Source: Syncephalis plumigaleata (Eukaryota; Zoopagomycota; Zoopagomycetes; Zoopagales; Piptocephalidaceae). From it: 20,718 bases of DNA. Below, piece by piece: positions 3,977-20,718 of the stretch. The notes below the pieces were generated by a model. The model saw nothing but the letters and a program-made list of their open reading frames with translations. It searched no databases and was not told the origin of the DNA. The stretch covers positions 1 through 20,718 of the forward strand of contig JAIXMF010000250.1 of NCBI GenBank assembly GCA_025201365.1, in the 5' to 3' direction. The position numbers were made by a program, and so were the translations under genes. How positions within the stretch are numbered: position 1 is the first letter of the stretch; each line of letters opens with the position of its first letter.

Positions 3977-4048
3977 TTTATCTTTTATTGTTATTATCCA
4001 TTTATCTATTATCATTATTTTCGTCGTGTATAATTAGCAGTGTTTAAT

Positions 4049-6247
4049 ATGGCCACTCTTTCAATTAATAGTAGTACTCCCGTTACCCATGTTGATCCAA
4101 AGTCAAAGCAGTGGCAGCAACATCCAACTTTTGCTCATGAAAGAGCGCAAGCATCGTTCGTTGCACGGGATCTTACTCATATCCTTAGTGGTGAGCCTCA
4201 AACGACTAGATCCATTGAGAGCATACAATATATTTTGAAGCAGGAACGGATATTTGACAATACTATTAGCTATCATTTGAACCATGAGCAGCAATACATA
4301 CGTGGGCTGCAAATGATTGAGCGTTTGCAAGAATTGCGTATCAAGCATAACTGGACAAAAGAAGATATGTCCATTGTATATGATGAGGTTAGGGAAGGAT
4401 TGCCCGCGCTATTTAACAATGATGCAGTAATAAAGACACTTGAAACTCAAGCCACCGATGAACAACAAGCAGTGTGGCTTCCATTAGCTAAGAGCTGGGC
4501 CATTCTAGGCTGTTATACTCAGACCGAGATGGCACATGGCTCGAATATTCGTGGCATTGAGACTACAGCCACATTCATACCGGATACCGACGAGATCGAG
4601 TTGAATACACCGACACTGTCCAGCACAAAATGGTGGATAGCCGGTATGGGCAAGACAGCCAATGTGGCATTGATAATGGCACAGCTCGTGTTGCCTGATG
4701 GCAAATATGTCGGTGTGTTCCCGTTCATAGTGCAGATTCGCTCGTTTGCCGAGCACGCACTGCTTCCCGGTGTGGAGACAGGCGACATTGGACCTAATTA
4801 CGGATACAATGCCATTGATATCGGATACTTGTCGTTGAAGGGGGTGCGCATACCGAGAATGAACATGTTGATGCGCCACATAGAATTGACGCGAGATGGA
4901 AGGTTGAAACGACACAAAATGAGCGATCAACGACATACGTACAGCACACTACTCGACAGTCGTATCGGAGTGATTGTAGGAGCGAGTCCGGCATTGGCCA
5001 CGGGATGCACCATTGCTACGCGATACTCGATAGTACGTCGACAATTCAGCGGTTCAGACGCAGATAAGAGCGGGAAGGAGGTGCCCATCCTGGACCATCA
5101 AAGCCAACAGCATCGAGTGCTAGTGCCGATAAGCGAGGCATACGCATTCCACTTTACCGGTCGACGATTGAAGCACTTCTATAAACGAGTTGACTCGCAG
5201 GAACTATCGGCCAATATGGTCAATGGATTATTAGCGGCAGTACACGTATCGGCATCGTCGTTGAAGCCGTACATGGCAAGTAGAACGTCAGAATCACTCG
5301 AGACACTCCGTCGTGCGTGTGGAGGTCATGGATACAGTCAGTTTAGCGGACTTCCATCATTGGTGTCGAGCTACGCGCAATTCAATACGGGAGAAGGTGA
5401 GAACCACGTAATGGCACAGCAAGCAGCACGCGTACTCCTAAAACGATACACCTACCTGCACTCCACACCGAATGCTGCTCGTTCCGTCAGCATCGATGAA
5501 CGATACATGTTGCTTGCACTCAATGGCCAGCTCGATCATAATCGTTGCACAGTCGCCACTCTAGAGGAACTGCGCAATCCACGGGTGTACCTGCACGCAT
5601 TTGAACAATGCGCTGCCTACCATCTGGCTAGTTTACACCGACGCCACGTACAGGGTGCACCATTCTCAGACTGCCACATCGACGTTGAACGACTGGTGCG
5701 TGCACATGCCGAGTTGTATGTGGTGCGCAGCTTCGTCAATGTACTCCATCCCGAGCTACGTGATGGCGATGGCGATGACGTCAGTAGCGGTCAACAGTCG
5801 GGTGAATCGGCATACGACGTCATTCCACCACCGATCCACCAGGTGTTGAGTCGACTATGCGACCTGTTCGCACTCAGTCGAATCCAGGCGCATCTGGGTG
5901 ACCATCTGGAGGCCGGCTATCTTCAGCCGACACATGGCTCATTGGCTAGGGCGGCGGTGCGTCGTTTGCTTCAGGAGATACGGCCAGATGCACTTGCACT
6001 GGTGGACGCGTTCAATGTCTCGGACCGAAGTCTAGGCAGCGCACTAGGTCGATGGGACGGCCGTGTATACGAGGCATTGGCGGCCATGGCACAGGCAGGA
6101 CCGATGAATCGCACCGATGTCACGCCAGGCTACGAGCCAGCGGCGGGTGCACTTGCGATTGACGGTCAGCCGTACAAGGGATTGAAGGGTATATTCGAGG
6201 CGGGCTGGCGTCATGCGGGATATGACCGCATTCCAGCAAGATTGTAG
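4049..6247 (+). CDS. Acyl-CoA oxidase, peroxisomal (copy 1, catalytic Glu present)
   Basis: 732 residues, intronless; ATG 4049 is the first in frame after the TATA box. The family catalyses the first step of peroxisomal fatty-acid beta-oxidation: FAD-dependent oxidation of acyl-CoA to trans-2-enoyl-CoA with release of H2O2. Evidence: CYTQTEMAHGSN (from residue 155), the GDIGP block, RYSIVRRQ, DHQSQQHR, RRACGGHGYS, and NTGEGEN with Glu449 at the position of the catalytic base (Glu421 of rat enzyme). The C-terminus is ARL, a PTS1-type tripeptide (S/A/C-K/R/H-L), so it should be in peroxisomes. Oddities: usually conserved positions differ (GPN for GPK, DIG for DNG, YST for YGT, RIPRMN for RIPREN), so activity or specificity may be altered. 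From base 5444 the gene is nearly identical to copy 2. AATAAA follows at 6261-6266. It is convergent with copy 2. Confidence 0.93.
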   Translation: MATLSINSSTPVTHVDPKSKQWQQHPTFAHERAQASFVARDLTHILSGEPQTTRSIESIQYILKQERIFDNTISYHLNHEQQYIRGLQMIERLQELRIKHNWTKEDMSIVYDEVREGLPALFNNDAVIKTLETQATDEQQAVWLPLAKSWAILGCYTQTEMAHGSNIRGIETTATFIPDTDEIELNTPTLSSTKWWIAGMGKTANVALIMAQLVLPDGKYVGVFPFIVQIRSFAEHALLPGVETGDIGPNYGYNAIDIGYLSLKGVRIPRMNMLMRHIELTRDGRLKRHKMSDQRHTYSTLLDSRIGVIVGASPALATGCTIATRYSIVRRQFSGSDADKSGKEVPILDHQSQQHRVLVPISEAYAFHFTGRRLKHFYKRVDSQELSANMVNGLLAAVHVSASSLKPYMASRTSESLETLRRACGGHGYSQFSGLPSLVSSYAQFNTGEGENHVMAQQAARVLLKRYTYLHSTPNAARSVSIDERYMLLALNGQLDHNRCTVATLEELRNPRVYLHAFEQCAAYHLASLHRRHVQGAPFSDCHIDVERLVRAHAELYVVRSFVNVLHPELRDGDGDDVSSGQQSGESAYDVIPPPIHQVLSRLCDLFALSRIQAHLGDHLEAGYLQPTHGSLARAAVRRLLQEIRPDALALVDAFNVSDRSLGSALGRWDGRVYEALAAMAQAGPMNRTDVTPGYEPAAGALAIDGQPYKGLKGIFEAGWRHAGYDRIPARL
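5444..6090 (+). repeat. Inverted repeat arm 1: 647 bp identical to copy 2
   Basis: Every base from 5444 to 6090 matches the reverse complement of 7471-8117. Positions sum to 13561 throughout, so there are no indels. Mismatches bound the tract at 5443 and 6091. Upstream the genes diverge quickly; downstream there are scattered differences to the stop codon. Confidence 0.95.
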
Positions 6248-6535
6248 ATTGAACACGAGCAATAAAATACCACACTATTATTTGACACTACTAAGGCACC
6301 GTGTGTGCAGCGATGATTGTTGCAATGTTGCTTAATAAACCATTGTCTTTATTCGTATGCTAGATGATATGTCAAGTGTAGTTGTCATGATTGTAACAAC
6401 GACGATGATTGCATGTCATTAATTGATTCGACTATTGACGTCTACACAGCCAATCATACGATAATGGCATATCTGACAGCTGTTGGTATTTACAAGGCAA
6501 GTTGTAATTAGGTGGTGGTGTTATTGCGAGTATTT
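6248..6535 (+). repeat. 3' flank of oxidase copy 1, diverged part of the inverted repeat; poly(A) signal
   Basis: The first 288 bp after the stop codon align with the reverse complement of 6999-7313, with scattered substitutions and small indels. AATAAA at 6261-6266 is the likely cleavage signal, and a second AATAAA lies near 6334. Similarity fades after GAGTATTT (6528-6535). Confidence 0.8.
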
Positions 6536-6998
6536 ATGATGAGTATAGCATTATTCTACTGGAATAATGAAGCAATGTGTATATTAATGAGTAGGTAGTT
6601 GACAAATACAAATCACATATAACAACCGCTATCGTTGTTTGTTATACCATAAGCATTGCTAGTAAGAACAATAATCGTGGCACGTTTGCTGATCTAATGT
6701 TCATCGACATCATTCGTAATGATATGCACATCCATTTAGTAATCATGATTGTTAATGTAATGTAGAATAGACGCGAGGATAAATCCAATAGTAAACGTTA
6801 ATAAATGTGTTTGTCATTATTTATCATGAATATGCATCGAATGAATGTTACTAATACAAGAATACGATTGTGCTTTATTTGTTTGTTAGTAAAATACACG
6901 GTTATATCGCATAAAGTAATGGATATTTTATTATGACTTCGAATGAATGAATTCATGCAACTGCTAATATTCAACATTGCGTGTCATTGAATTAAGCG
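6536..6998. other. Spacer of the inverted repeat
   Basis: 463 bp of AT-rich DNA between the two arms, with no long ORF, no motif I recognise and no similarity between its halves. It would be the loop if the arms paired. Confidence 0.7.
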
Positions 6999-7313
6999 AA
7001 ATACTCACAATTGCAACACCACCTAATTACAACTTGCCTTGTAAACATCAACAGCTGCCAGATGTGCTATTATCGTATGATTGGCTGTGTAGATATCAAC
7101 AGTCGAATCAATTAATGACATGCAGCCATCATCATCATCATCATTGTTATTGTCATCGTTGTTGTTAGAATCATGACAACTACACTCGACATATCATTTA
7201 GCATACGAATAAAGACAATGGTTTATTAAGCAACATTGCAACAATCATCGCTGCACGCATGGTGCCTTAGTAGTGTCAAATAATAGTGTGGTATTTTATT
7301 GCTCATGTTCAAT
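6999..7313 (-). repeat. 3' flank of oxidase copy 2, diverged part of the inverted repeat; poly(A) signal
   Basis: Aligns with 6248-6535 in reverse complement. It is 27 bp longer; much of the difference is a (CAT)n run at 7127-7144 that is only two units long in the other arm. The minus-strand AATAAA is at 7300-7295. Confidence 0.8.
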
Positions 7314-9503
7314 CTACAATCTTGCTGGAATGCGATCGTATCCCGCATGATGCCAGCCCGCCTCGAATATACCCTTCAATCCCTTGTACGGTTGACCGTC
7401 AATCGCAAGTGCACCCGCCGCTGGCTCGTAGCCTGGCGTGACATCGGTGCGATTCATCGGTCCTGCCTGCGCCATGGCCGCCAATGCCTCGTATACACGG
7501 CCGTCCCATCGACCTAGTGCGCTGCCTAGACTTCGGTCCGAGACATTGAACGCGTCCACCAGTGCAAGTGCATCTGGCCGTATCTCCTGAAGCAAACGAC
7601 GCACCGCCGCCCTAGCCAATGAGCCATGTGTCGGCTGAAGATAGCCGGCCTCCAGATGGTCACCCAGATGCGCCTGGATTCGACTGAGTGCGAACAGGTC
7701 GCATAGTCGACTCAACACCTGGTGGATCGGTGGTGGAATGACGTCGTATGCCGATTCACCCGACTGTTGACCGCTACTGACGTCATCGCCATCGCCATCA
7801 CGTAGCTCGGGATGGAGTACATTGACGAAGCTGCGCACCACATACAACTCGGCATGTGCACGCACCAGTCGTTCAACGTCGATGTGGCAGTCTGAGAATG
7901 GTGCACCCTGTACGTGGCGTCGGTGTAAACTAGCCAGATGGTAGGCAGCGCATTGTTCAAATGCGTGCAGGTACACCCGTGGATTGCGCAGTTCCTCTAG
8001 AGTGGCGACTGTGCAACGATTATGATCGAGCTGGCCATTGAGTGCAAGCAACATGTATCGTTCATCGATGCTGACGGAACGAGCAGCATTCGGTGTGGAG
8101 TGCAGGTAGGTGTATCGCTTTAGGAGCACGCGTGCTGCTTGCTGTGCCATTACGTGATTTTTGCCATCTCCTGTGTTAAATTGTAAATAGAAGGTTAGTA
8201 GATCTGGCATTCCACTGAGTTTGCTGTATCCATGTCCGCCACATGCACGACGAAGCGTCTCAAGCGAGCCAGATGTCGTGTCCGTTACATAGGTCTTGAG
8301 TGCCGACGCCGATGCATGCGATTCAGCTAGCAATGCTTTGGCAGCTTCTGGCGACAATGTAGATGATGTCAATCGCTTGTACATCCTCTTCATTCGCTTC
8401 CCTGTAAAGTGGAATGCATACGCTTCGCATATTGGCACGATAACACGGAGCTGCTGGCTCTGATGGTCCAGAATGGGCACCTCAACGGCATTCTTACTCG
8501 AATCCGCATGACTGAACTGACGGCGAACCAAGGAGTAGCGTGTTGTAATGGTTGTGCCATAGGCCAGTGCCAACATGGCATCGGCCACAATGTTAACACG
8601 AGCGTATAGCAAGGTTCCGTATACGTGTCGCTGATCATTACCGCCATGTCGTTTCAACACTCCATCTCGCGTCAGTTCAACACGTCGCATGAACATGTTC
8701 TTCCTTGGTATGCGCACTCGCTTCAACGACAAGTAACCATTATCGATGGCGTTGAATCCAATCTTTGGCCCGATATCACCTGTCTCGACACCAGGAAGCA
8801 GTGTGTGGTCGGCAAACGAGCGAAGCTGCACCATGAACGGGAATACACCGGCACGACTGCCATCTGGCAATATGAGCTGCGCCATAACAACAGCAACATT
8901 GGCGGTCTTGCCTAGTGCACCTGGCCACCATTTCACACTGGACAGCGTTGGTGTATTCAACTCGATCTCGTCGGTATCCGGGATGAATGCGGCTGTAGTC
9001 TCAATACCGCGTACATTCGATCCATGTGCCATTTCGGTCTGAGCATAGCAGCCTAGTATTCCCCAGTTCCTTGCTAATGGAAGCCATACCGCCTTCTGCT
9101 CATCTGATGCCTGTTCCATGATAGTCTTTATAAATAAATCGTCATTAAGTAGTGTTGGCATTCCCTCGTATAGCTCTTTATAAGCAATTGCTATATCATG
9201 AACCGATAGTTTGTGTTTTCTTTGTAACTCCTTGAACCGTTCCATTATTTGCAACCCTCGTACATATAGTTGTTCATGGTTCAAATGGTATTGGGAAGCT
9301 TTATCGAATAGAATTTCTCGCTCTACCAATCGACGAATCGACTCGATATGCTCGGTCTTCTCTTGTCCTCCATTGATGATATGAGTCAATTGACGAGATG
9401 TAAATGATGCCAATGATCGTTCGCGCGCCAAATCCGGGTGTTCCTCCCATTTACGCGTTAATGGTGGCAGATAACTTGTAGCATTTGCTGATATGACATC
9501 CAT
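7314..9503 (-). CDS. Acyl-CoA oxidase paralogue (copy 2, catalytic Glu replaced by Asp)
   Basis: 729 residues from ATG 9503, the start that best matches copy 1. An in-frame ATG at 9548 gives 744 residues with a poly-Asn stretch, and the frame stays open to an ATG at 9677. Family blocks: CYAQTEMAHGSN, GDIGPK, DNGYLSL, HVYGTLLY, RYSLVRRQ, RRACGGHGYS; C-terminus ARL (PTS1-type). These blocks keep residues lost in copy 1 (GPK, DNG, YGT). At the catalytic position, however, the motif reads NTGDGKN: codon GAT (8168-8166, residue 446) gives Asp where the catalytic Glu should be, and the next conserved acidic residue is Lys. Glu-to-Asp at this base severely lowers activity in acyl-CoA dehydrogenase relatives, so the protein may be weak, altered or regulatory (inference). 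The last 800 bp are almost identical to copy 1; the only amino-acid change there is Arg to His near the C-terminus. Confidence 0.92.
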   Translation of the reverse strand: MDVISANATSYLPPLTRKWEEHPDLARERSLASFTSRQLTHIINGGQEKTEHIESIRRLVEREILFDKASQYHLNHEQLYVRGLQIMERFKELQRKHKLSVHDIAIAYKELYEGMPTLLNDDLFIKTIMEQASDEQKAVWLPLARNWGILGCYAQTEMAHGSNVRGIETTAAFIPDTDEIELNTPTLSSVKWWPGALGKTANVAVVMAQLILPDGSRAGVFPFMVQLRSFADHTLLPGVETGDIGPKIGFNAIDNGYLSLKRVRIPRKNMFMRRVELTRDGVLKRHGGNDQRHVYGTLLYARVNIVADAMLALAYGTTITTRYSLVRRQFSHADSSKNAVEVPILDHQSQQLRVIVPICEAYAFHFTGKRMKRMYKRLTSSTLSPEAAKALLAESHASASALKTYVTDTTSGSLETLRRACGGHGYSKLSGMPDLLTFYLQFNTGDGKNHVMAQQAARVLLKRYTYLHSTPNAARSVSIDERYMLLALNGQLDHNRCTVATLEELRNPRVYLHAFEQCAAYHLASLHRRHVQGAPFSDCHIDVERLVRAHAELYVVRSFVNVLHPELRDGDGDDVSSGQQSGESAYDVIPPPIHQVLSRLCDLFALSRIQAHLGDHLEAGYLQPTHGSLARAAVRRLLQEIRPDALALVDAFNVSDRSLGSALGRWDGRVYEALAAMAQAGPMNRTDVTPGYEPAAGALAIDGQPYKGLKGIFEAGWHHAGYDRIPARL
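7471..8117 (-). repeat. Inverted repeat arm 2: 647 bp identical to copy 1
   Basis: Mirror of 5444-6090. It begins 48 bp past the Asp codon that replaces the catalytic Glu, so the active-site difference lies just outside the homogenised tract. Confidence 0.95.
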
Positions 9504-9660
9504 TATCGTGGAAGTGCTTTTATTATTATTATTATTAAATGGTGGCATGGCTGTAGTAAACGAGCTAACTTTATCAGAAAGATACAATATACTTAACAAT
9601 ATCAAGTAGGATTGCAAGTGAAAACGGTACAACGTCACCATACGCACAAGAAATGCAGAG

Positions 9661-9666
9661 TATATA
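9661..9666 (-). promoter_or_regulatory. TATA/CCAAT element of oxidase copy 2
   Basis: On the minus strand CCAATATATAC is seen here, 113 bp upstream of ATG 9548 and 158 bp upstream of ATG 9503. Transcription starting about 30 bp downstream would exclude the ATGs at 9677 and 9641 and favour the shorter protein. Confidence 0.35.
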
Positions 9667-9677
9667 TTGGTATGCAT

Positions 9678-11478: not shown

Positions 11479-12464
11479 CATCATTTATTATCAATATTGT
11501 TATCATTATTACTACTACTTTTATTTCTATTATGTTACTTTAACAAACACAACTGTAAACACACCAACTTATGGTGATGTCTATAAATTATTGCTTATCT
11601 CAATGATCTCTATTGACTAGTACCAATTGTTGTGTCGATATCTATATATGTCTTGTTAAACATGTGATTCTGATAGATACGCGTTTATTTAGAATGATAA
11701 GCACTACTGCTGGAGTACAGTTGCTATCGGGTACCATTTTAATTCACATGTCAGAAAGGATAGTAGTGGTGGTGAGATTATTCATGATAGGTGGATACAC
11801 AGACCGCCTTTGGAAGAAGAGCTACTACGTCGGGAGTGGCCGCGATACGTCTCATGATCGTTTACAAGATGCCACCTGCATTAGGAAGGCTGGCACGGCA
11901 GAACCGACGTCATTGTCGACACTCTAGAACGAACGTTCATGTTGACCAGGCCTTGACTATACTACCCCGCTCTTCTCCTTTTCCTTTTCTAAGTTGATAT
12001 GACTGGTTCATTATTCGGATTGTACCTCATCTGTAATGAGCGAACTAATCACGTCTCATTCCTCACTTAACGATGATAGTGATGATGCTATTCTATTATT
12101 AAATAACATAGCACAATTAATTGTAATAATAGTAGCAACATAATAACTAGTAGATGATATGTATATACATTAGTAAGCTAGGTAGATAAATATACATTTA
12201 CTATTGACTACAACGAATTAAAGACAATCAGCGTCGATGGTAGAACACGTTCACATGATCCTATTCTCTTAGTCGCCTATTTCTCTGTGGCACCTTTACG
12301 CTTGAGCCTATTGGTGCAATAACGTCTAGCATTAATAGAGCACATGTTGATAACATATTATTGCTTCTTGAAAAGAATAAACATATGTCACATGCATCGA
12401 GAAGGGTTCGCCATGCGTGGTGAGGCTGTAATGGCTTACCACGTAAATATTAGCTATAATCATT
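11479..12464. other. Noncoding region with a short coding-like block
   Basis: The 3' region of the membrane gene, AT-rich. Between 11693 and 11857 a frame without its own ATG is open (54 codons, TGA at 11855) and its end reads convincingly like protein (PPLEEELLRREWPRYVS). The other two + frames are also open across much of 11791-11857, and GC content is higher than around it. It may be an exon or gene remnant. I found no splice pair joining it to the upstream gene with good signals. Confidence 0.3.
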
Positions 12465-12519
12465 GATGCTAATGATGATGCTAATGGTGATGCTAATGGT
12501 GATGATGCTGATGATAATG
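12465..12519 (+). repeat. Imperfect GATGCTAATGGT tandem repeat
   Basis: Trinucleotide-based repeat with a 12-bp higher unit (GATGCTAATGGT), about 4.5 units with drift. It is read as Asp/Ala/Asn/Gly codons in one frame, but no ATG-started gene covers it. Confidence 0.8.
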
Positions 12520-12889
12520 CAGTAATAACCATCAAGATTATGCTAGGTAAGCAAGCTTTTTAAGCTTGTTATACAACATGAATACATGCTACTTATCCGA
12601 CATTACGGTTCATGTATCGGATAAGGACTGCCCGTTGGTGTGTGCGTCACCAATAGCTGAAGCTACTGAGGAGTATAGAATCATACATACATGGCTGCAC
12701 TGCAGGTGTGACGGCTGCTTCCTGTTACGCATCCACAAAATAGCACATTCGTCATAATCACAAATCGTACAGTCTTTGCAGATTCAAGCTTTCCATGATC
12801 CACACGGGTGGTGACTTGCTCCACAAATCAGTGAAAATTAACGCTGCTCGTTCATTTATAATGCCATTCCGCTCCTTTGTCGGTCGTCT
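12520..12889. other. Intergenic, two inverted repeats
   Basis: CAAGCTT-TTT-AAGCTTG (12552-12568) and CTTATCCGA ... TCGGATAAG (12592-12600 and 12617-12625, 16-nt loop) are perfect palindromes close together. A 59-codon Cys-containing frame (ATG about 12578) overlaps them without other support. Confidence 0.4.
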
Positions 12890-14092
12890 AGCTAGTTCAA
12901 CGTATTCCCCCGCTGTCGTTTCGTTCAATTCGTACTGTTGCTTCTGTCGATATTGCTATTGCTACCATCATAGCAACTATACCGCTGAGGTCAGAGTTTG
13001 CTTTCTCATCGTTGTCGTCATCATTGTTGCAGCTGTTGTTGCCCGCTTTCCTACGCTTTACCCAACGCTACACTGTCTATTTCGTCATTATTGCCGAATA
13101 CCTTGTAGTTGTATACTATTACAAACGGTTCCATTCTTCTTTTTCCCTTTCTCTTTTCTTGAAAACATCCTCTTCTAGCCTTCCTGTAGATTTATAACTC
13201 GTCTCGTACATACATATATACAACCTTGCCATTTCCCTTTCTTACTCTTGTATGTCATCCACCACACACGCGCACTCCTTCTTCATCAATCATACTTGTA
13301 GTTTGTTCGCATTTTGATAAATCATAAAAACAACACACATACTGGTAAGTAGATGATTCTTCTTCTTCTTAACTATACAATAGTTGGAATAATGCCATTC
13401 CTTTCCCTTTCCTCTCCATTGATCCTTTATAGACCCTCGTATTCATCATGGTTGTATTATTGTATTTTATTGTATTATTTTGTCTATTATTATGCATGAT
13501 CATTTGTATTTGCCAAAGAGTACACAACAAAGTGTATAGCTGCTAGTGGTGATGCCACACTGCTGCCACATGCCTCATAAAGAGGTTATGCAATCTAGAC
13601 CATTGATTGCAAATGACGTACATTACTCGCTTTCGCTCTCCCCCGATTCTTTTCCTACCATTTATTTGCCATTTATTCTTATTGCATTACTGCCATCATT
13701 ACCATCAGCAGCAACAACAATAGTAATAATAGTAGTGTATTCCTACACTGATTGCATACAATTTGTGTGGATCATCACACTAAACACTATACAGTTCCAT
13801 CATCGTGCTATTCTTTGTTTCAAATGAGGTCACGTTGTACGTCTCCGCGTGGACGCGTGGGAATTCCATTAGTAGTAGTTAGCAGCAGCAGCTAGTGGCA
13901 ACTCGTGGCGAATTGTTTACTATTCGATCCTGTCGAGCATCATGCCTTCATTCCATCATCACGCCATATTTTCCACGCTTAGTACGCGAGCGTAGTATGC
14001 TCTTTCGTTTCCTAACCGGCTGTGACATCTTGCCTGATGTTATGCTTCTTGCCCCAACCGCGTCAAGTTCACCTGTCCATCGCTTCTATTCG

Positions 14093-14115
14093 AGAAAGAA
14101 AGAGAGAGAGAGAGA
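14093..14115 (+). repeat. (GA)n / GAAA simple repeat
   Basis: GAGAAAGAAAGAGAGAGAGAGAG; the only clear purine run in an otherwise pyrimidine-rich strand nearby. Confidence 0.9.
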
Positions 14116-15383
14116 TCCTTCACCCTCTCCGTGTCATTGTCTCGACTCTGCCGCACAGGCATAAACAGCTATATATTCATTGGCATCGTTCGCCCCTTTG
14201 CTTCTAATCCTCCTCTTCTTTATCCTTTCTTTTGCCTACATTCTGGCCGGCCTTTCTGTGCCTTTATATTATTCTATTGTTTCTTCTTTCACTCTCTCTC
14301 TATATATTTCTTTTTTCTTTTGGCAAACAGCAAACAATCATTGTTTCTTTTTGCGTATTATCCCATACAGTTCTAGTCAGTATACTACGCGGTTTAATCT
14401 GTTAGTTAGTGCATCGATCACTGTGTAGAGTTCGTAGAACACCGTTGCCATTACTATTATACCTAGTATTTGCCAAGTGGTGCCATCTATCGATATCCAT
14501 TTCTTTTCTTTTTGCCTTACCACCACCATCGTGCGCGTATCCAGTGTATGTGTGTGTACGCTTATACACGCGTAAACAAACAAAAAGCGATCTCTCATCG
14601 GAAACTTTTTCATCACTATTTTATTGGTGGTCTAGTTTTTGCAAGTCACAGTTGTTCGTGCTCTAACCAACATTGAATCGTATTGTTACCGACTTTTACT
14701 TTACGTATTCCTTTAAAACTTTTGAAATTAATCCACATATACATTCGTACATTTTTCCATTATACTATATTCCTACATTCTCGACGAATACTCCCCTTGA
14801 ATTTGCTTTATTTTCTTTTCTTTCTACTCTACTGTTTATTTCCATACTCTCCCTTACAAATATATATATATATTGGCACTAAATTAGGCTGGCCATCCCA
14901 TCTTAATTTCTACCATTTCCTTTTTATTACTTACTACCTTGTACGTACGTGTACAATTTGAACACTTTGCAGCAATCCGTTCGTCTCTCCACATCTGTGT
15001 GCGTGGTAAGTAGTAGCAGTAGTAGTAGCATTGATATGTGTGTGTTGATTTGTGGAAACGCCCGACTTGGTGGGTGCTTTGTTTGAATATCTATTTCAAT
15101 AACAACCAACCAACCAATATTGGCGAGGTGCATGTTTCCGCGTGATGACCGCTCATTGACTGAGCCATGTGAGCACGCGCGCATTTGGCGGGTTTTTTCT
15201 TGTTCAATAAGCATGAATTTTATGCGTAGTAGACACACACAGTGATACAACAATAACAACTACTTGTTGTGATATTGCTTATTGGCAACAAACTATCCGT
15301 ATGGCAATTGGCTATTTATTACTACATATCGTAATGTTGACGTGTATTGTCACATTTGAGAACGGAAGAATTGAACAGACATG

Positions 15384-15405
15384 CACACACACACACACAC
15401 ACACA
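15384..15405 (+). repeat. (CA)n microsatellite
   Basis: About 11 CA units. It is complementary to the (TG)n tract at 15521-15556, so the two could pair. Confidence 0.95.
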
Positions 15406-15520
15406 TGCTGTGACGATGATGCTCCTAAAATAAATGACATGATGCTATTCTCTCGTTTCAGATTACGCAGATAAACTGCTTTTCCGGTTCTCTTCCCATC
15501 ATCGACTATTGCATAACACG

Positions 15521-15556
15521 TATGTATGTATGTGTGTATGTGTGTGTGTGTGTGTG
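15521..15556 (+). repeat. (TATG)n/(TG)n microsatellite
   Basis: TATG units running into at least eight TG units, 115 bp downstream of the (CA)n tract. Confidence 0.95.
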
Positions 15557-16010
15557 CCCGCGACCTTGAACATGCCATAGCAATAGAAACAGCAATAATG
15601 TTTGGCAGGCTGTTCAAATATTTCTTTCTTTCTCTACGCGTATCACGCTGAATTGACGAGGAAATCCCCTTTTTAAACGGGTAAATCCTTCCTTCAATCC
15701 TTCCTTTCTTCCTTCTGTTTAACCTGTCCCTTACTGCTAACTAGTGTAGCGATTATTCTTTTACTATTTACCTCCTACCAATTAATCTTGGCATCCACTC
15801 CTTAAGTGCAATTGATTGATTCATTATAGCGTGTTTATTCGTTTGCGTTTTCACTCTTTCTCGTTCTTACTTTCAAGCTATTAACTTGCATTTATCGCCA
15901 TTATCATTGATTGCTATTACGTGGTCATTATATAACTGCTTTGTTGGGTGAGTAGTAAGTAGCGTGTTGTTGTACCAAGTAGTATCGATTCAAATCGACA
16001 GTTGACCGTT

Positions 16011-16026
16011 TGTGTGTGTGTGTGTG
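16011..16026 (+). repeat. (TG)n microsatellite
   Basis: Eight TG units followed by CT-rich DNA. Confidence 0.95.
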
Positions 16027-16477
16027 CCTCTCTCTCTTCCCCTCGCTACTGTTATTTCCATTCCTGTCTGCTTTGTGGTGGCACAAACTGGCCGCGGCCC
16101 TCACTCGGTACGATAACACACACATTCAAGTATCCGTACGCCATTACGAGCATACCACAACAATGACACCACTGTTGTATTTGTGATTTTTCATCATATC
16201 TCTCTCTCTCTTTCTGTGTGTTGTGTTGTGTGTTTACGGGCAAGACAAAATATTTTTATGACAGTATCCTCTTTTCTATCAAGAGTACTTGTGGCCTCTC
16301 TTTCCTTTACTTTTGCGCTTTACGTTTATCCTCCTTTTTTTTGTTGTTCGAGTTGGTCCGTCGGCTCGTCACTTCCCCCTTGTCCCGCAAGCTCTGTCTA
16401 AATTCCTAACACTCCGCGCTCCTCTGGTTATTAGGAATTCCGAAAGCGACTGTTTTTTGTAATTGCGACCTTGCAGT

Positions 16478-16497
16478 TTATTATTATTATTATTATT
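16478..16497 (+). repeat. (TTA)n microsatellite
   Basis: About seven TTA/ATT units, noncoding. Confidence 0.95.
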
Positions 16498-16514
16498 AGC
16501 ATACATACAGTGAA

Positions 16515-16536
16515 GAAAGAAAGAAAGAAAGAAAGA
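16515..16536 (+). repeat. (GAAA)n microsatellite
   Basis: Five to six GAAA units; a purine tract just after the (TTA)n repeat. Confidence 0.95.
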
Positions 16537-16934
16537 ACGCCTATTCTCCTAAGTGCATACTACCCGGAGATATTTGGCTTGGCTCTTCGTCGGCAATATT
16601 TCTTCCTTACTTATCGTGCTTCAATTCGCTTACTCGCTCGCTTATTTCTTGGCCAATTGTTCTTTGCCTAGAGCGTAGTGAATTCGTTTAAAGCAGTGCT
16701 TTTGTGCGCCAACGTCTTCCTCTCCCTTTCTCACTCTTGCTCACTCTCGCCAATATACGTCTTTTGTTCATACGTTATTCCGTGACTAACTTGACTTTTA
16801 TTCAAGTAGAATTATCTATCAATCACTAGACGACTACTATCGCTTGTCCGTCCATCATACTCGACCAATAAGCAAAGTAAACTGCAACTTTTTTGCACAG
16901 GAATAGTATCGTTAAAAGTCACCTTCTAGTTACC

Positions 16935-18269
16935 ATGCAAAGTATGCTACCTGCACTTTCTGTAACTCGACCTGTTCCGGTCAATGCTGTACGATCTGCT
17001 GCCATGAGGAATGCAGCTTATTTGGCGCATGTTGCATCGGCTCACTCATCGGGTGCCAATACCCCGTTACGTGCTGCCTCTCCATTCCTATCCAGCAGTC
17101 TGACTACTACGAATATCAACGATCAGTCCAAGTTATACCGGCAATATCGCTCCTCGCTTGCTTCTGCAGCCCATATGCAACATCAACATCAATCATCTTC
17201 CCCAGTTTCCTCGATCATTACCAGTCAAATTAGTAACGAGCAACCTATCTCAACACTAAAATCCGGCAAGAAATCACGTAAATCAAAGCGTACATCGACA
17301 CGTACCACCGTGCATCACTCTACTTCTACGTTCCCGGCTAAATTGCTGCGTTTCATTCTATTACACTTGCCGTTGGCTATCTTTGCCGCCGTACAACTAT
17401 GCATTGCATTGGTGGTGGCGCCATTTTTGTTGATGTTTGCCATTGGTGTTGCTTGTGGCACCGCTTTTCTCGCTGCACTCCTTGATATGTGGAATCCATA
17501 TTGGTGGCGCTTAGTAAAGGAACACGTAGGATCAGTGTTGCGACCCGCACGTAGCAGCTCATCTCGTCGGTCATCTTCCCCCGCATCATCCACGAGTCCT
17601 TCCCGTTCCTTGTCTAGCAGCAGTACCAGCAGTAGCCATAGCAATGGCAGCGATTCAAAGGAAAAGCAATTGCCCGAGGAGAAACCATTGTATGAACGAC
17701 TCATTGACGATGAACGTCGTCGTGTACGTGATGTCACCGAAAAAGTCCGTGCTCGTCGTCGTCATCAACAAGCCGCCTCACTCTCTCAGCTACCATCAGC
17801 TTCGTCCATTATGGGTGCTAGTCTGGTTACTGGTCTTGCCGGCTCCATTGAGACACCATCATCTTACAGCTCATTGCCCACTCGTCGTCAGCATCGACCA
17901 ACATCGTCCGGTTTACGTATGTACAAAACGGCCACTTATCCACGATCCGCTATGGATGAAGCAGCCTACCAATCCTCATCCGTGGTGAAGAACAGCAAGC
18001 CTATTCTCACCAATGATACTAATTCGAATGGAGGAGCTTCCGCTTCTTATCGTGATGCTACCGCAGAGCTGGCTGCATTATTTAACAATAATAAGCAGAA
18101 GCTTCCTTCATCCGATAGTACTACTACTACTACTACTACTACTGGCACTAGTAGTTTATCTGAAGATTCTACAACAGTACACTTACACTGTTCGCCGATC
18201 TTCATGTGTTCCACCGAGGTAGACGCAGCACGACGCCCGGATCGCGTCGGTATGTCACGTATGGCATAA
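16935..18269 (+). CDS. Putative Ser-rich membrane-hairpin protein
   Basis: 444 residues from ATG 16935, the first ATG after the splice acceptor at 16900. No family recognised. Layout: Ser/Ala/Gln-rich disordered N-terminus (1-108); basic patch 110-123 (GKKSRKSKRTSTR); hydrophobic block 137-184 that fits two membrane spans joined by a tight turn (hairpin), ending in aromatic DMWNPYWWRLV; Ser/Arg-rich linker 203-240; charged amphipathic helix about 246-277 (PLYERLIDDERRRVRDV), possibly coiled; then a disordered Ser/Thr-rich tail with poly-Thr (396-403) encoded by an ACT microsatellite and a short end with VHLHC. The basic patch before the hairpin and the Ser/Arg linker suggest cytosolic termini on both sides (positive-inside rule). 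It shares the hairpin region and overall plan with the protein at 10588. A reticulon-like or ER hairpin role is possible but not shown. Confidence 0.75.
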   Translation: MQSMLPALSVTRPVPVNAVRSAAMRNAAYLAHVASAHSSGANTPLRAASPFLSSSLTTTNINDQSKLYRQYRSSLASAAHMQHQHQSSSPVSSIITSQISNEQPISTLKSGKKSRKSKRTSTRTTVHHSTSTFPAKLLRFILLHLPLAIFAAVQLCIALVVAPFLLMFAIGVACGTAFLAALLDMWNPYWWRLVKEHVGSVLRPARSSSSRRSSSPASSTSPSRSLSSSSTSSSHSNGSDSKEKQLPEEKPLYERLIDDERRRVRDVTEKVRARRRHQQAASLSQLPSASSIMGASLVTGLAGSIETPSSYSSLPTRRQHRPTSSGLRMYKTATYPRSAMDEAAYQSSSVVKNSKPILTNDTNSNGGASASYRDATAELAALFNNNKQKLPSSDSTTTTTTTTGTSSLSEDSTTVHLHCSPIFMCSTEVDAARRPDRVGMSRMA

Positions 18270-18908
18270 TAAGAGCATGTTATATCATCTCACATTCTGC
18301 TTTTTTGTCTGCCTGTCTGTTTGTCTGCCTTTCTGCCTGCCTACTTGCCTGCCTGCCATTCTTTCTTTTTACTTTTTTTTCTCTTCTACATTTGCATTTC
18401 ACTTTGCATATTAATCATCGCATTTACTTTGATGGCATCTATGCCCTTGCGCCGCATGACTGCCATTCTCTTTCTTTTGACGATTTATACAATATCTATC
18501 ATCGATCATAAGCGTACATTTATTTTGTCCAATATACACAATGAATTTGTGATTTCTACACGATTGTAACATCAATCAATCAATTTATTGCAAGTGTGCG
18601 TGTGTCCTTTGTTTATCTAGATTATCTCTTACTCGCATGATGCATTAATTCCATGTTATTCAAATGCATGCATAATTACAATGACAATGATATGTACTAC
18701 AAGAAAGCATATACAATCCATATAGTCTATCTGCTCAATAGACAATTAAGATGCCTGAATCTATTACTCAATGACCGCTGTCATCAATCAATACAAGTAG
18801 TAGAAAGCGGAGTAATAACAAGGAGTTTCAAACTGTTACAAGGCGAATAAACGAGTAGCCTATTCTCTCCTTACACATTTTCTTTCTTGACATTCCATTT
18901 ATCGCACA
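18270..18908. other. Intergenic region with CTGC/TGTC repeat
   Basis: Begins with the 3' UTR of the membrane gene, including a degenerate (CTGC/TGTC)n tract at about 18307-18358 followed by a T/C-rich run. The rest is AT-rich and leads into the phosphatase gene. No convincing ORF. Confidence 0.6.
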
Positions 18909-20697
18909 ATGAAGCATTGGCATACAACTGCAATATTCTTACTAGTATCGGCACCGTTATACGTGCTACATTCATATATTCCTACCGCTGAAGCTTGTCT
19001 ACTTAAGAGGAGAACACTAGCTTCCACTCCAAATTCTTTACTTACCTATACTCAGTCGTTTGTAGAACAAGATGACTGGTATAACACGCATGCACCACTA
19101 GCAACTACTCACGACATTCATGATGTATTTATTGGATATGTTCGCCAGTGTCAGTCAAGTAATAACAACAATAGTAATATTCGACTAATCTCGAGAAAGA
19201 CTGCGTTTGGCTATGGCTTGGTGTTGTATCCTGACCCAGTACGTGATGCCACGGTAGTACATGATAAACCAGCATTAGAGCCACCTTGCGTTGCATCCAG
19301 TAATCAAAGAAGCAATCAACCAAGAATCAAGATCAATTCTGCCAAGTTTGGACGAACAAAAAGATATGGCAACGACTATCTAAGGTACAATTGGACATTG
19401 TTAACGAGGAAGATGAAGATGAAGTGCCTGAATTACTAGACGGTTGGGAAGTAGCAGATCGATATGGTTATGATGCACCACCTGTATTAGCATGGAGAGA
19501 TGTACGATTTATACCGCGTCATTTGATAAGGCGTGATCTCGATGTTACCGGTGGGATGGAAGTAGTATACGACTCACCCATTAGTAAATACTTGGTGGCA
19601 GATGATGGCGGTATACGCTTAGGACAGGGTAAGGACAAGGTGCCATTATTCCAATTAGTGTGTCCACATCAACATCAGAAAACTGGATCTAGTCAGATAT
19701 CCAATGTCGTTGAATGGGATGACGCGGAAAGTGAGACATTTCGTTCGGCGGCTGCACTAGCCTCACGTCGTATTGTAGCGATTGGCGATCTACACGGCGA
19801 TTTCGCCAATACGCTTAACGTGTATCGTATGGCAAATATCATTGACGAGCATAATCATTGGGCTGGTGGTAATCATACGATATTTGTTCAAACGGTAAAT
19901 AACATAAAGAACATATGAGCACTAATGGTTAACGATGTAATAGGGCGATATTGTTGATCGTGGTCACGATACCATTCTGTTATATGAATTTATGCGCGTT
20001 TTGAAAACTGAGGCATACAAGGCAGGTGGACGTGTAGTGCAAGTGTTAGGCAATCATGAGATTATGAATATGGCGGAAGATCTAAGATTCGTAACTGCCG
20101 AGGATTACATGTCATTCGGTGGACCTGAACCGCGTAAGCTTGCATTCTCACAAAAGGGCGAGATTGGCAGGCGACTATACCAGCTACATCTAGTGCATCG
20201 TGTGGGCGATACGGTATTTGCACACGGTGGCATTAACGAGGAATGGGCTGGACGCGGTGTACGATTGACAAATCGGGATACAACACGCGAATTGCCACCC
20301 TATGTAGCAGAGACCGACATATATCGACGCTATTATGGCTGGCCTATATTCGGTGATAATGGACCTGCCTGGTATCGTGGCTATGCAGAAGGAGCGGAAC
20401 ATGTCATTTGCCGTTCTTTGTACAAATCATTAAAGAAGATGAAGGTGAGATATACCAGCAAGTTTATCCATATATATATATATATATATAGACATGGAAT
20501 GCTAATTGTAATGCCAATAGGTTAAGCGAATGGTAGTCGGGCATACATGGCAGGCATCGGGTCGCATTCTACCTCGATGTAATAATCGATTCTTTGTCAT
20601 TGATGTTGGTATATCCTTTGCTTATGGTAGATATCAAGCAGCATTGGAAATTGCACCGAATGGTAAAGTAACTGGAATATATCCGGAATCCAGTTGA
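18909..20697 (+). CDS. Secreted/endomembrane Shewanella-like (SLP) PPP-family phosphatase
   Basis: Proposed CDS join(18909-19238, 19385-19894, 19944-20444, 20521-20697), 505 residues. The last two introns (19895-19943, 49 nt; 20445-20520, 76 nt) are certain by frame and GT-AG. The first (19239-19384, GTACGT...CTAAG) is needed because the frame changes, but its donor could instead be 19254. Residues 1-29 look like a signal peptide (IFLLVSAPLYVLHSYIP). All metal-site motifs of PPP phosphatases are present: GDLHGD (19784-19801), GDIVDRG (19944-19964), GNHE (20049-20060), AHGG (20220-20231), GHT (20539-20547). The NHEIMN motif and the long insertion with FGGPEPR match the SLP branch known from plants, protists, fungi and bacteria. 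It should be a metal-dependent protein phosphatase acting in the secretory pathway or outside the cytosol; substrate unknown. An acidic segment (NEEDEDEVPELLDGWEV) precedes the catalytic domain. The stop lies 21 bp before the window end. Confidence 0.88.
20471..20490 (+). repeat. (TA)n microsatellite in phosphatase intron
   Basis: Ten TA units inside the last intron, between the GTGAGA donor and the TGCTAAT branch-like motif. Confidence 0.95.
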
Positions 20698-20718
20698 ACA
20701 TATCAGCATCATCTAGTG

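Follow-up and report, generated by a model that had tools for sequence, protein, structure and literature searches.

Palindromic pairs, in which tightly linked inverted paralogues share silent variants, have been described in Drosophila for Hsp70Aa/Ab and Amy-p/Amy-d (PMC3924832). In the Amylase pair, as presented there, the homogenized part is limited to the coding sequence and the flanks evolve independently. A second system is the Saccharomyces flip/flop pair YNL018C/YNL034W, described as 4-kb inverted repeats that lie 24 kb apart, contain almost identical full genes and are kept alike by conversion, with a change in orientation as a by-product (PMC9731477). The locus analyzed here, a convergent (tail-to-tail) pair of acyl-CoA oxidase genes that we call X and Y, resembles the Drosophila pairs so described in that its genes are linked and inverted and share silent variants, and its limited tract recalls Amylase. 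Unlike those pairs, X and Y are convergent, are homogenized over half of the coding sequence plus the 3' flank while the other half is saturated, and appear to exchange with a second pair. Like the published flip/flop genes, they are homogenized inverted copies, here with a possible change in the orientation of the intervening DNA. However, the X/Y arms are 1.1 kb long, the spacer is 463 bp and the genes are half diverged; any re-inversion is deduced here from two pairs, whereas flip/flop is known from strains. We found no paper in a collection of open-licence articles that combines acyl-CoA oxidase, gene conversion and inverted genes. Gene conversion is a known process, of which X/Y offers an unusually clear record of the steps. 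What is distinctive is the homogenization of half a gene beside a saturated other half, together with exchange between two nested pairs.

The window, by which we mean the whole 20.7-kb stretch of DNA analyzed, is an entire contig (JAIXMF010000250.1, here C169) of a 32.6-Mb genome assembled in 383 contigs. EF-1alpha of this genome contains a stretch matching the opisthokont insertion and has the yeast structure 1f60 as its best solved relative; the source is likely to be a fungus. It is 98.97% identical to C223:1868406-1886704, C223 being a long contig of 1.95 Mb, and to the left of an insertion described below it aligns with C223:1867394-1868422. Since C169 is about 99% identical to, and syntenic with, C223:1867394-1886704, we take it to be the alternative haplotype of this interval. 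Other short contigs pair with long ones in a similar way, at 97.3 to 99.0%, around ACOX-like genes. The window copies are designated Y2w and X2w and their C223 counterparts Y2c and X2c. The window holds two linked inverted paralogues, and C223 carries a second such pair 18.8 kb (about 19 kb) away, pair 1, with members X1c and Y1c. The broken frame of Y1 may reflect either a pseudogene or an assembly error. Coordinates are collected in Table 1.

Table 1. Features of the X/Y locus and of pair 1 (window positions unless a contig is named)
Feature	Position	Strand	Remarks
X1	C223:1851205-1853418	+	Pair 1 member
Y1	C223:1854458-1856706	-	Pair 1 member; broken frame, X-like N terminus, Y-like remainder
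Gene Y (Y2w)	4040-6247	+	Open frame; 735 codons from GTG at 4040, ATG at 4049; C terminus ...PARL
Gene X (X2w)	7314-9677	-	Open frame; 787 codons counted from first ATG
Catalytic-base codon, Y	5393-5395	+	GAA, Glu; aligned to 1is2 residue 421
Catalytic-base codon, X	8166-8168	-	GAT, Asp504; Asp in both X2 alleles
Left homogenized arm	5405-6535	+	Codon 456 of Y to stop, plus 3' flank; from mismatch list, inverted repeats and block identities
Right homogenized arm	6999-8156	-	Same part of X; same basis as left arm
Identical core (647 bp), left copy	5444-6090	+	Ends set by SNVs private to Y2w
Identical core (647 bp), right copy	7471-8117	-	Exact sequence match
Most recent tract (putative), outer bounds	5405-6168	+	From site patterns and trees; right copy 7393-8156; first orthologue-type SNV at 6169
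Older, partly decayed tract (putative)	4448-4914	+	80% inverted repeat with 8647-9113; over FAD-binding middle domain
Partner of older tract in X	8647-9113	-	80% inverted repeat
Spacer	6536-6998	.	463 bp between arms; direct relative to second-pair spacer, surrounding genes inverted

Both genes encode acyl-CoA oxidases, Y being of the peroxisomal type. No intron was seen in the open frame of Y; translation of X possibly starts nearer 9500. In both proteins the Pfam models ACOX_C_alpha1, ACOX and Acyl-CoA_ox_N score above cut-off and Acyl-CoA_dh_M falls slightly below it (32.9 and 32.1 bits against 33.3), so that three of the four models of the ACOX1-type set (N-terminal, middle, C-alpha1 and C-terminal ACOX) are found above cut-off. 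Comparison with ACOX relatives in the PDB gave E values of 2.5e-110 for Y and 3.3e-118 for X. The two proteins resemble ACOX1-type enzymes (PDB 2fon, 1is2 and 1w07) in all domains and in length; paralogues in the same genome stand at 33 to 39%. X and Y are 62.7% identical over 445 aa of the N half, where the nearest other paralogue (on contig C112) shares 38 to 42% with either; over the C half that paralogue shares 32%, below its N-half value. These identities indicate that X and Y are sister genes, and a fusion with a distant paralogue is therefore needless.

Plotting dS along the genes, a check proposed in the sequence-only reading, revealed two levels. In the 448 codons before the step, Y2w and X2w differ at a pS of 0.711 (dS about 2.2, saturated) with a dN of 0.29; in the 280 codons after it, dS is 0.029 and dN 0.002. 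Synonymous divergence drops from saturation to about 0.03 in one step, just 3' of the catalytic codon. The C223 genes behave likewise, with a 5' pS of 0.739 and a 3' dS of 0.039 for Y2c/X2c, and 0.713 and 0.029 for Y2c/X1c. In the 3' part the window paralogues are as close as alleles are, or closer (dS 0.060 for Y2w/Y2c and 0.040 for X2w/X2c). In the 5' half dN is low compared with dS, so both gene types appear to be constrained. Third-position GC is 0.55 in the 3' half, against 0.46 to 0.50 in the full-length copies.

The 5' halves had been said to differ widely. On average they do, as the N-half protein identity attests, but codons 150 to 300 or so are intermediate. In 50-codon windows of the 5' half, pS is 0.73 to 0.95 at either end (three windows each) and 0.40 to 0.58 over codons 150-300; synonymous differences number 49.5 of 106.2 (0.47) in the middle and 168.4 of 202.5 (0.83) in the other 5' windows (Fisher p = 5e-11). 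Our reading is that an older conversion tract, of intermediate age and partly decayed, lies here. Local constraint on synonymous sites would be an alternative to conversion for this block.

The identity of 5444-6090 with the reverse complement of 7471-8117, first noticed from the letters of the window, was confirmed base for base. Near-identity proved wider than that. Over 5405-6400 the arms differ at 13 of 996 bases (5434, 5443, 6091, 6169, 6210, 6223, 6226, 6256, 6301, 6304, 6363, 6374 and 6393), and when 13 mismatches were placed at random in 996 bases, a clean run of at least 647 arose in 3 of 200,000 trials. The similarity extends beyond the stop codon: 5378-6408 matches 7153-8183 at 98%, and a further inverted match joins 6401-6535 to 6999-7133 at 89%. 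Identity had also been thought to end sharply at 5443 and 6091. These are instead single mismatches, each private to Y2w among the six copies, and hence uninformative about where a tract ends. The true 5' step is at 5404/5405, with 8 mismatches in 5383-5404 and 23 in 5338-5377, and it falls nine bases behind the codon aligned to rat ACOX residue 421. In pair 1 the corresponding step comes about 27 bases sooner: the X copy resembles Y from roughly 5377 on the window scale and carries four bases found in it alone. The two pairs therefore do not owe their edges to one event. MAFFT aligned Y2w and X2w with a gap near columns 2325-2338, which was discarded as an alignment effect, the raw sequences being identical there; in column counts it divides the 647-base run in two.

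Did X and Y exchange sequence after the two haplotypes had split? The 647-base stretch is present in six copies in the genome, two per pair and haplotype seen, and within columns 1974-2977 of their alignment 35 ungapped sites have two states. Six of the 35 are common to Y2w and X2w alone (5527, 5553, 5570, 5707, 5781 and 6118). Another five, all in 6169-6374, are of orthologue type, common to X2w and X2c alone; the two classes do not overlap (5527-6118 against 6169-6374; Fisher p = 0.002). The remainder comprises five sites that separate Y2c and Y1c from the rest, two that unite Y2w with X1c, two shared by Y2w, X2w and X1c, one shared by Y2w, X2w and X2c, and singletons (five in Y2w, five in X2c, three in X1c and one in X2w). 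Within the tract, no site in the six-copy alignment groups X2w with X2c against the Y copies. Shared variants are thus confined to the tract, and the flanks follow orthology. Over columns 1973-2460, Y2w and X2w differ at 2 of 473 positions, Y2w and Y2c at 13 of 475, and X2w and X2c at 10 of 475, so that the paralogues are closer than the alleles of this one genome. Here the second haplotype and pair 1 took the place of the sister species that the sequence-only reading had proposed for such a comparison.

Block trees (HKY, 200 bootstraps) form the same mosaic. Columns 1500-1945 separate X from Y (bootstrap 100), columns 1973-2460 split Y2w and X2w from the other four copies (bootstrap 99), and columns 2460-2977 unite X2w with X2c (bootstrap 96). 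The undivided 3' block gives Y2w and X2w a bootstrap of just 62, because its 3' end follows orthology. Since site 6118 is shared, the tract must pass 6091. The six SNVs private to both window arms, which carry the whole of the haplotype argument, imply an exchange postdating the haplotype split, and they support X-Y conversion on the window haplotype. At three tract sites (columns 2050, 2155 and 2357) Y2w agrees with X2c but not with Y2c and Y1c, a weak hint that conversion may have run from X to Y. Against this hint, X1c has the Y base at column 2155, and the five sites at which X2c stands alone are open to either reading.

Mismatches between the alleles peak in the cassette, where they number 118 of 5611; the flanks have 21 of 12665. 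We considered this peak as evidence of imported variants and dropped it. Divergence is patchy in this assembly: in another haplotig pair, C164/C362, full 500-base bins (18 in all) contain anything from 1 to 65 mismatches. Given this patchiness, and since highly divergent stretches stay as separate contigs, the peak is not independent evidence. The middle of the C164/C362 comparison (C164:3001-13000 against C362:255001-265000) is repeat rich, with many weak matches to itself, each about 1 kb long and 70 to 76% identical.

The two pairs also appear to have exchanged sequence with each other. Y1c and Y2c are free of mismatches over the 1029 columns that cover the 3' part and over the 445 that precede it, and BLAST finds 10 mismatches in 2094 between Y1 and Y2 on C223. 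The alleles Y2w and Y2c differ at 28 of the same 1029 columns; the exchange between pairs is therefore younger than the haplotype split. In the body X1 and X2c differ at 18 of 942 columns, but in columns 601-1050 (three bins) they are no more than 77 to 87% alike, which implies that the inner parts of the cassettes were exchanged later than their outer ends.

The spacer adds an unexpected pattern. Between the two pairs it is 97.6% identical in direct orientation and 55% identical when inverted, the level of shuffled sequence. The window spacer, in direct orientation, is 96.3% identical to its C223 allele and 96.5% identical to pair 1, against 0.55 inverted, and its orientation is the same in both haplotypes of pair 2. 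In the last 135 arm columns beside the spacer, Y1c equals X2c, these being the two right-hand arms. Columns 3116, 3122, 3125 and 3127 sort by side, not by gene, on C223; in the window column 3125 alone sorts cleanly by side, and other sites there are mixed. The pattern fits a crossover between arms that flips the spacer, and it also fits conversion running across the spacer. Together, the older middle block, the near-complete identity of Y1 and Y2 and the direct spacer point to repeated recombination.

The sequence-only reading had proposed gene conversion between inverted neighbours, and the dS step, the similar noncoding flanks and the six shared derived SNVs bear it out. We think it very probable that an old inverted duplication was followed by repeated ectopic gene conversion of the 3' parts, including conversion between pairs. 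An acyl-CoA oxidase gene would have been duplicated tail to tail, giving X and Y. A break in one arm would then be repaired from the inverted neighbour. Heteroduplex would form only where the sequences still match, so that the diverged 5' halves would be excluded and diverge further. The 3' part of one gene, repeatedly copied onto the other between the inverted arms, would for that reason stay almost identical; the 5' halves would remain different, being too diverged for efficient pairing and constrained at the protein level. The last such event on the C169 haplotype may have covered 5405-6168 at most. The same process would have operated between the two pairs, and resolutions that included the spacer could have left it direct between outer gene halves that are inverted. 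We infer conversion in preference to other copying routes, and likewise a pairing threshold as the cause of the step; any selective role would be a further supposition.

The main risk to the conversion reading is the assembly of C169. Perhaps cross-mapped or collapsed reads, or polishing, allowed one C169 arm to be overwritten by the consensus of the other? C169 is a short, separate contig in a genome with six near-identical arms, and to the right of about 12000 it has no mismatch to C223 and differs only by a few one-base gaps near its end. However, both C223 pairs show the same 5'/3' step, their arms keep differences of their own (23 to 30 columns of 1029 to 1035), and C169 retains arm-specific bases on either side of the core. 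Such an artefact could perfect the last 647 bp, but not the dS level of 0.03 common to both pairs. The same worry arose in yeast, where, by the published account, independent long-read assemblies of seven strains agreed (PMC9731477). We regard an artefact as unlikely.

A one-off origin, in which X and Y would have acquired one 3' half through a single late event, an inverted duplication or a fusion, seems to us less likely still. It too predicts a single dS step, but the sites private to both window arms require exchange after the split, tract ends differ between the pairs, Y1c joins an X-type N terminus to a Y-type remainder, and the block at 4448-4914 has a separate age. Purifying selection strong enough to hold the 3' half alike at the DNA or protein level, acting without exchange, has next to no chance of being the explanation: some protein constraint is expected of a C-terminal half with the ACOX domain, but near-identity extends to synonymous sites and to the 3' flank, and the nearest other ACOX paralogue is less similar over this half than over the N half.

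The sequence-only reading had also noted a homogenized C-terminal part beside a diverged active-site part. That contrast stands, and the last diverged codons include the position of rat ACOX Glu421, which we take to be the catalytic base. Glutamate occupies this position in Y and in X1, as in ACOX1-type enzymes; X2 differs from them in having Asp, and X2w also has a Lys two residues beyond it. In related dehydrogenases a glutamate is described as acting as the base (PMC5798300), and ACOX isoforms of C. elegans are reported to pair as heterodimers that differ in substrate preference (PMC6719183). Might homogenization be useful? A common C-terminal half could permit X-Y heterodimers while the substrate-binding and catalytic half specializes, X2 with its Asp. 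We give this idea little credence. If it were true, the conversion edge behind the catalytic codon would reflect selection against overwriting tracts, and the common half would correspond to the end of C-alpha1 plus the ACOX domain.

The locus offers a clean natural record of ectopic conversion: it can be followed in two haplotypes and two pairs, and it combines tracts of several ages with an unexpected spacer orientation. The passage from saturated to near-zero dS within a few codons suits it to asking what limits conversion, mismatch or selection at the catalytic codon. Trees built from whole ACOX genes would blend two histories.

Two further features emerged when the window was compared with C223. 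Over 12001-20718 the window has no base mismatch to C223 and only a few single-base gaps, compared with 1 to 4% per 500 bases in the cassette; this part may be either a homozygous stretch or the product of shared reads. At 1031-2413 the window holds an insertion of about 1.38 kb that is missing from the C223 allele and is flanked by a 16-bp direct repeat (1016-1031 and 2414-2429). Its open reading frame (1076-2266) had no Pfam match, and a CCHC-like motif is visible by eye. Copies of the insertion occur on contigs C104 (100%), C112 (99%) and C124 (99% over most of it), and it is probably a young mobile element.
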